NCBI GenBank assembly: GCA_946408345.1
Contig: CAMJRR010000003.1
Coordinates: 114,219-178,218 of the forward strand
Source: an uncultured Bacteroidales bacterium
GTDB lineage: Bacteria; Bacteroidota; Bacteroidia; Bacteroidales; F082
Length of the DNA: 64,000 bases
Direction of reading: 5' to 3'
In this document: positions 20,168 through 24,007 of the stretch, one piece after another
How the letters are laid out: each line of letters opens with the position of its first letter
Numbering within the stretch: position 1 is the stretch's first letter
Made by a program: the position numbers and the translations under genes
The notes under the pieces: generated by a model
Database searches by the model: none
Seen by the model: the letters and a program-made list of their open reading frames with translations, nothing else
Told to the model about the DNA's origin: nothing

Positions 20168-20183
20168 GATTTTGAAATTTTCG

Positions 20184-20192
20184 GCAAAAGTA
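20184..20192 (-). promoter_or_regulatory. -7 promoter box of lgt
   Basis: TACTTTTGC on the minus strand, 17 bp upstream of the lgt start. The CAACAAT-type repeat at 20201-20236 covers the -33 region. Confidence 0.55.
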
Positions 20193-20200
20193 GGAATATT

Positions 20201-20236
20201 TGTTGATTGTTGATTGTTTAATTGTTTAATTGTTGG
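20201..20236. repeat. GTTGATTGTTTAATTG-type short tandem repeat
   Basis: Imperfect tandem units (TTGATTG, TTTAATTG) upstream of lgt. Read toward the gene it is CAACAATTAAACAATTAAACAATCAACAATCAACA, the same family as 27191-27232 and 46222-46260. Confidence 0.8.
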
Positions 20237-20255
20237 CTACTGGCTATTGGTCTCT

Positions 20256-20315
20256 GGCTACTGGCAGCTTCAACGAAAAGAAAAACCTTACTTTTTCATT
20301 ATGCTGCCAGAAGCC
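20256..20315. repeat. Interrupted inverted repeat (GGCTACTGGCAGC family)
   Basis: GGCTACTGGCAGC (20256-20268) and GCTGCCAGAAGCC (20303-20315) are near-perfect inverted copies around an AT-rich 34-bp centre. Extra GGCTA-TTGG and AGAAGCCAGCAGC words flank both arms. It lies between divergently transcribed lgt and the sigma gene. Confidence 0.75.
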
Positions 20316-20354
20316 AAAAGTCAGAAGCCAGCAGCAAAAATAATTTCATCAAAA

Positions 20355-20385
20355 TGTAACTTTTTCGCCAAATCTCCGTATTACT
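20355..20385 (+). promoter_or_regulatory. ECF-type promoter of the sigma factor gene
   Basis: TGTAACTTTT (from 20355) and CTCCGTATTACT (20374-20385) resemble -35 (TGTAAC) and -10 (CCGTATTA) elements of ECF sigma promoters. The same two words with identical spacing (19 bp from start to start) lie upstream of the GIN-domain gene. The -10 word ends 10 bp from the ATG, so the leader is very short. This predicts autoregulation. Confidence 0.65.
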
Positions 20386-20395
20386 TTCGTAAAAG

Positions 20396-20896
20396 ATGGA
20401 CAGAAGTCAGTACAACCAGTGCGTGGAGCAATATGCCGACCGGCTTTTCCGCTTCGCGTTCTCGAGCCTCCGCAACCGCGAGCAGGCCGAGGACGTGGTG
20501 CAGGAGAGCTTTGCCCGCGTTTGGGAGAAAGTCAAGACGATAGATTTTGCGAAGGCGAAATCCTACCTCTTCACCACCGCCCACCATGCCATGATTGATG
20601 AAGTCCGTCAGCGACAACACTTTGTGAGCACCGAAGACTACGCGCCCACCGAAGAGAAAGCCAATGGAATCCCCTACCCTGACGTCAACGATATCCTGCA
20701 CAAGGCCTTAACCGACCTTCCCGAGGCACAACGCAACGCCTTGCTGCTGCGCGACTATGAGGGATACAGCTACCAGGAAATAGGCGACATCACGGGGATG
20801 AGTGAGTCACAAGTGAAGGTGAACATCTTCCGCGCCCGCACTGCATTGAAAAACAAACTGAAAAGCATCGACAACCTAATTGACATAGCGCCATGA
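20396..20896 (+). CDS. ECF-family RNA polymerase sigma factor
   Basis: A 166-residue sigma-70 family protein with only regions 2 and 4: region 2 at about 8-75 (YADRLFRFAFSSLRN, EDVVQESFARVWEK, AKSYLFTTAHHAMID) and region 4 at about 105-160 (LTDLPEAQRNALLLRDYEGYSYQEIGDITGMS). Between them is a short acidic linker. It directs RNA polymerase to a small envelope-related regulon. The stop overlaps the start of the downstream anti-sigma candidate by 4 bp (ATGA). Its promoter matches that of the facing GIN-barrel gene, so the latter is the likely target. Confidence 0.93.
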   Translation: MDRSQYNQCVEQYADRLFRFAFSSLRNREQAEDVVQESFARVWEKVKTIDFAKAKSYLFTTAHHAMIDEVRQRQHFVSTEDYAPTEEKANGIPYPDVNDILHKALTDLPEAQRNALLLRDYEGYSYQEIGDITGMSESQVKVNIFRARTALKNKLKSIDNLIDIAP

Positions 20897-21777
20897 GTAC
20901 GAACATCACTACCGACAACTACGAGGCCTACCTCCTTGACTACATGGAAGGTAACCTCAGCCCCGACGAGGCAGAGCAGCTGAAAGCCTTCGTCGCGGCA
21001 CAAGGCTTGGATTGGAACGAGCTCACCGAGGAACTTCCACATCTGGAGGCACCTCAAATCGAGTTTGAGAACAAAGAGCGCTTAATGCAAAGGTCCCTGA
21101 GCTCGTCGAAGGGCCGCTCTAATGATAGCAAGCGCGTCGTGCCGCTCTATGTCAAGATTGCCTCGGTTGCCGCTGCCGCCGGACTGCTGCTCACCGTCTC
21201 GTTGTGGCCTGAAAAGTCGATGCCGAAAGTGGAGCCCATTGCCAGCCTCAAGCCCATTGAGGTTAGCAGCATCAGCACCAATGAGCCCTTTGTCTTGTTG
21301 CCTAGGCGGGCTACAGAAAGCATAGATCCCTTGCCACGCACAGGCATACGTGGGGATGACATGCTTTCTGAAGGACACCTAACTACAGGAAGGAAGCCGA
21401 CACCTTTGTTGGCCGAATTACCGACCAAAGCAGCCACTGCTTTACAAACCGAGCAGCCTTGGACCGACTTTAACGAGCCCGACTTCGACTTGTTGGCCTA
21501 TCGCATGGACAAAGAACTGGCAATGATGTCATTAGATGGAAACGTCTTTTACGATGATGCAAAGGACGAACGCGACCTCTCGCTCATCGGCAAAGGCATC
21601 TACCTCTTGACCGACGGTCGCTACGACAGTTTTGAAGACCTCATCTTTTCCGGTTTAACCACAGCAAAGAAAGAACTGAGCTTAGCCGCCACCGACATGG
21701 CTTTGGCCGCTTACAACAACGTCAGCGAACAATATGAGGAAGCCAAGGAACGGTGGGAGGAGAAACACGGGGAGTGA
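20893..21777 (+). CDS. Putative membrane-bound anti-sigma factor
   Basis: A 294-residue protein: a cytoplasmic segment (1-85) beginning with the DYMEGNLSPDEAEQLKAFV motif typical of anti-sigma N termini in Bacteroidota, one transmembrane helix (about 88-105), and a periplasmic region of about 190 residues ending in a helical, charged tail. It is coupled to the sigma gene by an ATGA overlap. A 24-bp REP-like element (21092-21115) encodes residues 67-74 in frame, in the linker before the membrane helix. No zinc-binding HxxxCxxC motif is present, so the anti-sigma assignment rests on position and topology. Confidence 0.75.
   Translation: MSTNITTDNYEAYLLDYMEGNLSPDEAEQLKAFVAAQGLDWNELTEELPHLEAPQIEFENKERLMQRSLSSSKGRSNDSKRVVPLYVKIASVAAAAGLLLTVSLWPEKSMPKVEPIASLKPIEVSSISTNEPFVLLPRRATESIDPLPRTGIRGDDMLSEGHLTTGRKPTPLLAELPTKAATALQTEQPWTDFNEPDFDLLAYRMDKELAMMSLDGNVFYDDAKDERDLSLIGKGIYLLTDGRYDSFEDLIFSGLTTAKKELSLAATDMALAAYNNVSEQYEEAKERWEEKHGE
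21092..21115. repeat. 24-bp REP-like element inserted in frame (copy 1)
   Basis: GGTCCCTGAGCTCGTCGAAG continues as GGCC. It matches the element at 33472-33495 at 21 of 24 positions and lies inside a linker of the anti-sigma gene. Confidence 0.8.
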
Positions 21778-21810
21778 CCTTACCTCACATTCTTTCTCGT
21801 GCAGAATACA

Positions 21811-21858
21811 CAGAAATCGCAGAACTATGAGAATATTCCCATGATTCTGCGATTTCTG
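21811..21858. repeat. Perfect 14-bp inverted repeat between convergent genes
   Basis: CAGAAATCGCAGAA (21811-21824) and TTCTGCGATTTCTG (21845-21858) are perfect inverted copies around a 20-bp centre that itself has partial symmetry. It lies between the ends of the anti-sigma and GIN genes. There is no T tract, so it is not a canonical terminator, though it may insulate the two transcripts. Confidence 0.85.
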
Positions 21859-21883
21859 CGTGCAATAATATCAGCGTGCAAAA

Positions 21884-23851
21884 TCAGAAATTGATGCTGA
21901 ACCCGAAGTTCGCCGTATGGCAGGTCGGCGCATGAGCCTCATCGAAAGTGGGCAGCAGGTTGTATTGGGCAAAGAAGCCTAGGTTATTGCCTCCAATACG
22001 CAATGTGGCATCCAGCTTGAATGGATTCACATAATAGTCGCTATGCACCTTGTTCACGTCTCCGCTTCGGAACACGATTTTGGTCCAAGTGTCGACACGC
22101 AAGCCACCTGTGACGCCAGCGGCAATATAGAATCGGCGGGTAGGACGCACTTCTATCATCAAAGGAGCCTGGACATACAACACACCGAGTTTACTTCTCT
22201 TCACGACAGACACTGCAGGGTCAATACACTCAACTTCAAGATGATTCTCACCCTTGGTCAGACGTACCGGGTTGTTGAAACTATAGTTGTTCCATCCCAA
22301 ACCAATACCCGTATAAAGACCAGCCGTATGACGACGGTCGAAAGCAATGCCCACATCGGCAATATTGAAATTGAACACCCAACTTCTCATGGGACGCAAC
22401 TCCAAATCATTATTACCCGTTGAGTTAGAGCCCATCAACATATTCAAGCCTGCTTCAAAGCCGTTCCAGTTGGCATCGTAAAGGAGGTTCTTTTTTACGG
22501 GACGCTTGTCTTTAGGTTTGTCTACCTTTGACGATGATGTTTCCCCGAAATTCGATTCAGCGACATTCAAACCATCGACTCTCAAGTCACCACTTCCCAG
22601 CACTGTGGCTTGCAACACGTTGCATCTGCCCTGAAGGATGATGTCACCCGAACCATTCAAGACAACATGGACGGTATCGTAATCCAACTTCATAACCATA
22701 TCACCAGAGCCACTATTATAAATATTGAGGTAGTCACCTTTTATAGTACCCTTACTGACGACATCAGCCGACGAAAGCAATTGGATATTCTCGAGTTGGG
22801 AGACTTCAACTTCATAGTCGTCCGAGCTCGAAAGGAGAAGCAGTTCCGACTCCAGTCGATAGTCGGAGACCTCCTTACCCTCTTTCTTCAACGAAAAATG
22901 GCCTGGGGTCTGGCTGATAACGACATCGCCCGAACCCGTTACCCGAATAATGCGAACTGGGGAATCATCTTTTTTCGCAGGACGAGAGTTATTCGGCATA
23001 TCATATTTTTTTTCAAACTCTGCGCCCCACTGTTCCATCTTTCGGCCCCATTCTTCCATATCGGCACCCCATTGTTCCATGTCTTGCTCAAACTTTTCCC
23101 AGTCTACCGAATCGGAAAGTTGTTGGAGGTTTACCCCAAGTTCGCGCATCAGTTCTTTAAATTGAAGCGTATCAAGAGGCTCATAACCTGCTTTGACGTT
23201 GAAAGAAGAGTCCCAAGAACGGTTCGACTCGGCCTCGAAGAAAGGAGCGGCGTTATTAACCAACCCATTCAGGAAATTCCGTTTAGAATCGGTAAGTTCA
23301 TCATCGATATTAATAGCCATGTTCCACTTATCGCCACTTTTCTCGACCAACACCATATAATTCAGGTTACTTGCATTCACTTTACCCAAACTCTTCACCT
23401 CGCTGCAAAAGACGTTACAGTCGCCGAGAAGAATCACATCGCCAGTCCCGCATGACCGGACATAGATGTTGTTATAGCCGACCTCAAGGCTTAATACGCC
23501 AGTACCCGTTTTGTTGATGGAAAGATTCTCACCTTTCAACTGACCCTTTGATCTGACTCCCGCCGTACCCAAAACCTTCAAATAAGCCAGATTTTGAAGA
23601 GTTAACTCACGAGCCCCCGTACCTTCAAGATACAAAACGCTATCTTCAACACGACACTTGGGATAGTGATGCCCATAATCATTAATCGTCAGTTTGTCAC
23701 CTTGTTTAAGCCACACACTGCCAGTGCCACTTACCACCAAAGTGTTGATTTTACTACCATCCCCATTGGGTGTAGGGATTGGTTTGTCTTGCGCCTTCAC
23801 GCTTCCGAAGGCCAGCAGCAGCATCGCTGCAAAAATCAATCGTTTTTTCAT
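21884..23851 (-). CDS. GIN-domain (DUF2807) protein fused to an outer-membrane beta-barrel
   Basis: A 655-residue exported protein (signal peptide MKKRLIFAAMLLLAFGSVKAQ). Residues 30-190 and 295-440 are two DUF2807/GIN right-handed beta-helix-like domains (VVSGTGSVWLKQGDKL, IRVTGSGDVVISQTPG, NGSGDIILQG). Between them (about 245-280) is a helical segment with three heptads MEQWGAD-MEEWGRK-MEQWGAE. The last ~200 residues are barrel-like (AGLYTGIGLGWNNY, YIAAGVTGGLRV, NFGFSINF). An ECF-type promoter identical in layout to that of the sigma gene lies 126 bp upstream, so it is probably the target of that sigma factor. Function is unknown; DUF2807 is described as a putative autotransporter-adhesin head. 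Confidence 0.8.
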   Translation of the reverse strand: MKKRLIFAAMLLLAFGSVKAQDKPIPTPNGDGSKINTLVVSGTGSVWLKQGDKLTINDYGHHYPKCRVEDSVLYLEGTGARELTLQNLAYLKVLGTAGVRSKGQLKGENLSINKTGTGVLSLEVGYNNIYVRSCGTGDVILLGDCNVFCSEVKSLGKVNASNLNYMVLVEKSGDKWNMAINIDDELTDSKRNFLNGLVNNAAPFFEAESNRSWDSSFNVKAGYEPLDTLQFKELMRELGVNLQQLSDSVDWEKFEQDMEQWGADMEEWGRKMEQWGAEFEKKYDMPNNSRPAKKDDSPVRIIRVTGSGDVVISQTPGHFSLKKEGKEVSDYRLESELLLLSSSDDYEVEVSQLENIQLLSSADVVSKGTIKGDYLNIYNSGSGDMVMKLDYDTVHVVLNGSGDIILQGRCNVLQATVLGSGDLRVDGLNVAESNFGETSSSKVDKPKDKRPVKKNLLYDANWNGFEAGLNMLMGSNSTGNNDLELRPMRSWVFNFNIADVGIAFDRRHTAGLYTGIGLGWNNYSFNNPVRLTKGENHLEVECIDPAVSVVKRSKLGVLYVQAPLMIEVRPTRRFYIAAGVTGGLRVDTWTKIVFRSGDVNKVHSDYYVNPFKLDATLRIGGNNLGFFAQYNLLPTFDEAHAPTCHTANFGFSINF

Positions 23852-23884
23852 TTTGTTGAAGTTTAAGTTGTTGTTCGTATTACA

Positions 23885-23970
23885 AATTATTGACTCAAGA
23901 CTGGGGACTTGGGACTTAAGACTTGATACTTTGTCCTCTGTCCGTTGTCCTTTGTCTTCTTTCCTCTGTC
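23885..23970. repeat. Low-complexity word repeats in the leader of the GIN gene
   Basis: GACTCAAGACT, GGGGACTTGGGACTTAAGACTT and then TGTCCTCTGTCCGTTGTCCTTTGTCTTC are runs of imperfect short repeats between the ECF-type promoter and the GIN start. They would form part of its leader. Confidence 0.6.
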
Positions 23971-23976
23971 AACATC

Positions 23977-24007
23977 AGTAATACGGAGAAAGGGGGGAAA
24001 AGTTACA
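23977..24007 (-). promoter_or_regulatory. ECF-type promoter of the GIN-barrel gene
   Basis: On the minus strand TGTAACTTTT (from 24007) and CTCCGTATTACT (23988-23977), with exactly the spacing seen upstream of the sigma gene at 20355. The intervening nine bases differ (CCCCCCTTT versus TCGCCAAAT), which argues for selection on the two boxes. Confidence 0.65.

Follow-up and report, generated by a model that had tools for sequence, protein, structure and literature searches.

Two genes that face each other in the window (the whole 64,000-nt stretch of an uncultured Bacteroidales genome analysed here) carry the same ECF-type promoter box. One opens an operon for an ECF sigma factor and a predicted anti-sigma factor; the other encodes an outer-membrane barrel protein. 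The boxes, their association with these genes and their co-inheritance with the sigma factor are strongly supported by comparative sequence evidence. It is highly probable, in our view, that the sigma factor encoded at 20396 reads the boxes as its promoters and acts within the envelope-stress model set out below.

Table 1. Features of the sigma/barrel locus and box sites found across the genome.
Feature	Position	Strand	Basis or remark
ECF-type promoter box, sigma operon	20355..20385	+	exact match; TGTAAC (-35) 20355-20360, 16 nt, CGT (-10 core) 20377-20379
ECF sigma factor, 166 aa	20396..20896	+	Sigma70_r2, Sigma70_r4_2; NF058625
Predicted anti-sigma factor, 294 aa	20893..21777	+	position, conservation, AlphaFold2 model
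Outer-membrane protein, 655 aa	21884..23851	-	DUF2807, model, Foldseek; signal peptide, GIN/DUF2807 37-182, helices 188-283, second GIN 301-437, 8-strand barrel 464-655
Long 5' leader of barrel gene, palindromic GGAC/GTCC repeat hairpin	23852..23976	-	fold and shuffles
Promoter box, barrel gene	23977..24007	-	exact match; 35/35 assessable convergent loci
Genome site, sigma operon			0 mismatches
Genome site, 655-aa DUF2807/barrel gene			0 mismatches
Genome site, lipocalin	C8:61678		0 mismatches
Genome site, small DUF2807 lipoprotein	C1:118397		2 mismatches
Genome site, class-C-type serine hydrolase lipoprotein	C10:68793		3 mismatches

The first-pass annotation had pointed to a pair of identical sequence words with identical spacing. 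Pattern matching in the window bore this out: TGTAACTTTT-N9-CTCCGTATTACT occurred exactly at both positions, with 19 bp from the start of one word to the start of the next (a 9-bp gap), so that the two 31-bp boxes agreed in all 22 specified bases. This is far beyond chance, as the pattern did not occur in 100 dinucleotide shuffles, and the window held no third site with up to three mismatches. The N9 between the words differed between the boxes (TCGCCAAAT and CCCCCCTTT). ECF promoters typically consist of two short blocks, a -35 element with AAC and a -10 element with CGT, held a fixed 16-17 nt apart. Both boxes have this structure. Between box and ATG there are 10 bp at the sigma gene (ATG at 20396) and 125 bp at the barrel gene (ATG at 23851). 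Between lgt and the sigma promoter (20180-20340) the window also contains imperfect inverted repeats of the type CTGGCTACTGGC / GCCAGAAGCCAG.

Comparison with relatives showed that the boxes are inherited with their genes. TGTAAC-N16-CGT preceded the sigma gene in all 38 genus loci, with a spacing of exactly 16 nt (16-17 nt outside the genus), and across 35 distinct sequences every base of the ten-base word TGTAACTTTT was invariant, as was the T.CGTA.TA core, while the flanks were not. The barrel-gene box was present in 35/35 assessable convergent loci, a tally that leaves out L045 and L057 (cut or broken) and counts L075 through the box pair of G019; L063 is the unlinked case G083. In seven loci all three genes lay on the same strand in the order barrel, sigma, anti-sigma, and barrel and sigma were separated by 6-24 bp; these operons had a box before the barrel (7/7) and none before sigma (0/7). 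Distant Bacteroidota, whose sigma factors are 49-54% identical, have the order sigma, anti-sigma, barrel on one strand. There the barrel had its own box of the form GTAAC-N14..18-CGT in 15/15 loci (the first base being T in eleven), and the sigma box was present in nearly all. Outside the convergent group (42 loci), 49 of 52 strict TGTAAC boxes lay at sigma or barrel genes. In five genomes the barrel gene was on a different contig from sigma and was still boxed; contig positions exclude close linkage in G083, G449 and G452, and do not fully do so in G014 and G060. Loss of the boxes from relatives that keep the genes, which the first-pass annotation had named as evidence against its proposal, was not what these loci showed.

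Presence and absence of the components agreed with this picture. The sigma factor was found in 57 of 99 congeneric genomes, and the barrel domain occurred in exactly those 57 and was absent from the other 42. Among genomes at least 90% complete, the box was present in 22/22 with sigma and in 2/22 without it (Fisher p=2.6e-10, a value that ignores relatedness and is inflated by it; the rearranged and unlinked cases are independent of relatedness). The boxes in the two sigma-less genomes were weak single matches. Co-inherited with sigma as promoter elements, the boxes make both autoregulation and control of the barrel gene very likely. The first-pass annotation had proposed both, and comparative data strongly support both, through the invariance and fixed spacing of the boxes, the co-occurrence and the persistence of boxes where the genes have been rearranged.

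A genome-wide search, which the first-pass annotation had suggested, found the box to be rare, and not frequent at unrelated positions, the other outcome that the annotation had named as counter-evidence. The 3.07-Mb genome contained five sites with up to three mismatches (three exact, one with two and one with three), compared with none for a reversed-pattern control, and each of the five preceded either the sigma operon or an envelope gene. With a looser pattern built for this genome the four best sites were unchanged, all at 0 mismatches, and 2-mismatch matches were at control level. On sequence alone the serine-hydrolase site was at chance level, but three other genomes carry a box at this gene. 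No box preceded nine other sigma-70-family genes of the genome. Three other DUF2807 genes also lacked one, and we therefore rejected a general link between DUF2807 and the box.

The regulon was first described as compact and encoded in 4 kb. That description proved too narrow, since there are three further sites in this genome and about ten target families in the genus. Of 145 genus sites listed, 68 formed 34 convergent sigma/barrel pairs, 2.5-3.6 kb apart; among the remaining 77, 63 had an ORF start within 40 nt, and nearly all of these encode exported proteins. The commonest target was the small DUF2807 lipoprotein; the other families were an M13 peptidase, a 426-aa lipoprotein without known family, lipocalin, an S41-type peptidase, a CarboxypepD_reg protein, a serine hydrolase, a PspC/LiaF-TM protein (boxed in G020 and G008) and a small outer-membrane protein. 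This target set has the profile of envelope maintenance, and an envelope-stress response is the likely function of the regulon. Lipocalin was rejected as a core member because it was boxed in seven genomes only and is common in genomes without sigma. Upstream of the orthologue of the 426-aa lipoprotein in this genome (L226, G000:C11) we observed a decayed box, AGTAATATTTTCGCCCTTTCTTCGTATTGCT, that is exact or near-exact in relatives, which is likely a recent loss from the regulon.

The sigma factor itself is a short protein with sigma-70 regions 2 and 4 (Pfam r2 at residues 10-74, r4_2 at 100-151) and without region 3, as expected of an ECF sigma factor. Its best named family was NF058625 (sigma_PG0214 / GFO_1088), to which the match was marginal (132 bits against a cut-off of 130). 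In a quick tree it fell in a clade apart from the NF058625 core, together with the barrel-linked L217 and L218 (support 95-98, long branches), and the notion that it is a plain GFO_1088/PG0214 equivalent was dropped on this basis. TGTAAC-CGTC boxes precede the genes of other members of that family as well.

The adjoining gene overlaps the sigma gene by 4 bp, and its product had no Pfam or NCBIfam match. Class I anti-sigma factors are encoded together with their sigma factor and have a TM helix after a cytoplasmic domain that binds sigma. In the AlphaFold2 model an N-terminal helical bundle, predicted with confidence, is followed by a single TM helix (about residues 86-103) and a C-terminal helix; because gene position and architecture fit the class I type, we infer an anti-sigma role. 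The N-terminal domain, presumed to bind sigma, was missing in five of six aligned barrel-first species, a point against the model proposed below. At the barrel-first loci L079, L082, L083, L084, L085 and L086 the protein lacked the N-terminal NYEAYLLDY..EGNL domain that is present in all other relatives, and despite this loss the barrel-first proteins keep a K..LKK motif and the TM helix. Anti-sigma factors of the dual-membrane-spanning Reo/Dma type combine a sigma-binding domain, an inner-membrane helix and an outer-membrane barrel in one polypeptide. The 294-aa protein is not of this type, as it has no barrel, and the barrel is encoded by a separate gene with a signal peptide.

Two other ECF loci of the genome were observed in this connection. 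On C16 (L242; 1930-4454, plus strand) a second ECF sigma gene is accompanied by a 235-aa anti-sigma candidate and a separate, unfused 436-aa barrel protein, which is detectably related to the window barrel (hhalign E 6.5e-7). On C7 (L243; 4548-6831, minus strand) an ECF sigma gene adjoins a gene whose 595-aa product has barrel-like repeats and, close to its N-terminus, a single TM helix; this protein is a candidate fused anti-sigma of the Reo/Dma type. Homology between the window barrel and this candidate was tested and none was found; nor was the candidate detectably homologous to the window anti-sigma.

The facing protein matched the DUF2807 profile with 90 bits (Pfam cut-off 24.2). A sequence search against solved structures returned nothing, and Foldseek matched its model to GIN structures and to barrels of the OmpA/OmpX/Ail/NspA type; the DUF2807 assignment is borne out by a GIN (Toastrack) beta-helix fold (4ygu, TM-score 0.74 by target length). 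The modelled barrel is an 8-strand OmpA/OmpX-type barrel and not an autotransporter translocator barrel, so the protein does not qualify as an autotransporter adhesin. Among 43 homologues, all invariant columns other than M1 sit in the barrel, and the GIN domains vary or are missing; in distant homologues, L099 and L104 among them, the only Pfam match is to the barrel family. The constant partner of sigma is therefore the 8-strand outer-membrane barrel, and the DUF2807/GIN domains are optional. An adhesin role, as in the earlier label adhesin-head-like, is unsupported. The window protein, with 655 aa and two GIN domains, is longer than most genus relatives, which have 400-530 aa and a variable N-terminus.

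The leader between promoter and barrel gene folded more stably than shuffled sequences (z=-2.4 in the window, down to -9.7 in relatives), and its repeat word occurs nowhere else in the genome. Hairpins directly after the promoter were also seen at L044, L046, L066, L071, L078, L090 and other loci. The form differs between species, from a compact stem of 8 bp to long palindromic arrays of the GGAC/GTCC type (z down to -9.7) or longer inserted palindromes; distant relatives have no leader hairpins. The hairpins may reflect regulation at the RNA level or a site prone to repeat growth.

We propose the following model. In resting cells the inner-membrane anti-sigma, co-translated with sigma, would hold it until an envelope signal arrives, as in established ECF biology. 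Envelope stress would release sigma, which would then amplify its own operon, switch on the facing barrel gene and activate a small envelope set, here lipocalin, the small DUF2807 lipoprotein and probably the serine hydrolase. Direct contact between sigma and the boxes, the nature of the stress signal and the role of the barrel are parts of this model that we infer.

Other readings of the boxes can be weighed against these data. That the match arose by chance or through a recent local duplication is scarcely credible: it is favoured by the closeness of the two boxes and nothing more. The shuffles contained no match, spacers and flanks differ, and the pair of boxes is also found in Bacteroidota whose sigma is about 50% identical; the first-pass annotation was thus right that this is not a simple duplication. 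Another regulator, or a paralogous ECF sigma, might act on the boxes, leaving the link to the window sigma indirect. TGTAAC/CGTC-type boxes do precede other NF058625-like sigma genes in the phylum, so that related sigma factors may have the same specificity. We nevertheless regard such a reader as quite improbable, because two short blocks at this fixed distance are typical of an ECF promoter, the boxes vanish in genomes without the window sigma, and other sigma genes of the genome are unboxed.

The role of the barrel protein is likewise open to more than one reading. DUF2807 carries an adhesin name in Pfam, and a DUF2807 protein of P. gingivalis, PGN_1547, has been reported as an adhesin (PMC10949514), so the barrel protein could mainly be an adhesin and the regulon could serve attachment. 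This appears unlikely given the constant barrel and the optional GIN domains, the peptidases, lipocalin, serine hydrolase and PspC-type proteins among the co-targets, and the grouping of DUF2807 as Toastrack with envelope-stress partners (PMC11237479); PGN_1547, compared by description, has DUF2807 in common with the window protein, and it is the barrel and the sigma control that are conserved here. More tentatively, and on balance doubtfully, the GIN-barrel may be an outer-membrane sensor signalling through the separate anti-sigma. On this reading sigma, anti-sigma and barrel would make up a stress system of three parts that spans the envelope and is widespread in Bacteroidota, and Reo/Dma would be its fused counterpart. 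Pointing in this direction are the strictness with which sigma and barrel are inherited together (57/57 and 42/42, stricter than for lipocalin), the related barrel of the C16 trio and the description of Reo as an anti-sigma with a C-terminal outer-membrane barrel (PMC9308784). The missing homology to the large barrel-like candidate on C7 argues against it, and a dedicated effector explains the co-inheritance equally well.

The proposed envelope-stress circuit resembles known systems. EcfO-Reo of Bacteroides/Phocaeicola and Das/Dma of B. thetaiotaomicron share with it an ECF sigma with an adjacent anti-sigma, an outer-membrane barrel, surface lipoproteins as outputs and an envelope-stress role (PMC9308784, PMC13114119, PMC13088901); the Phocaeicola Reo is described as reaching across both membranes, with an operon that antibacterial toxins induce (PMC9308784, PMC13114119). 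In contrast, the barrel here stands alone as a protein with a signal peptide and GIN domains, under a promoter of its own, and the anti-sigma is short. Reo/Dma and the window system were set side by side by description, and sequence comparison covered the C7 fused-type candidate. Psp/Lia systems (PMC11237479) link Toastrack domains (DUF2807/DUF4097/DUF2154) and PspC to stress, as does the genus regulon, though here control is by an ECF sigma box and an outer-membrane barrel is attached to one of the Toastrack proteins.

In Bacteroidota, few sequences recognised by ECF sigma factors are known. A 2020 paper (PMC7366714) cites a single one, that of EcfO in B. fragilis, and for B. thetaiotaomicron none; no relevant paper came up when the literature was searched for TGTAAC together with sigma factors and Bacteroid*. 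Relative to the literature examined, the main EcfO, Dma and ECF-classification papers aside, the ECF sigma/anti-sigma envelope response is known, and the defined promoter and the unusually strict outer-membrane partner are new. The data provide a sharp promoter signature that reaches deep into the phylum and is tied to one sigma clade, together with a predicted regulon. They also provide a trio of sigma, anti-sigma and outer-membrane barrel that stays co-inherited where its genes have been separated. Outer-membrane stress sensing in Bacteroidota would thereby become directly testable in a cultivated relative. A gut bacterium appears to place a sigma factor and its facing outer-membrane gene under one signal, which offers a testable model of the response to envelope damage.
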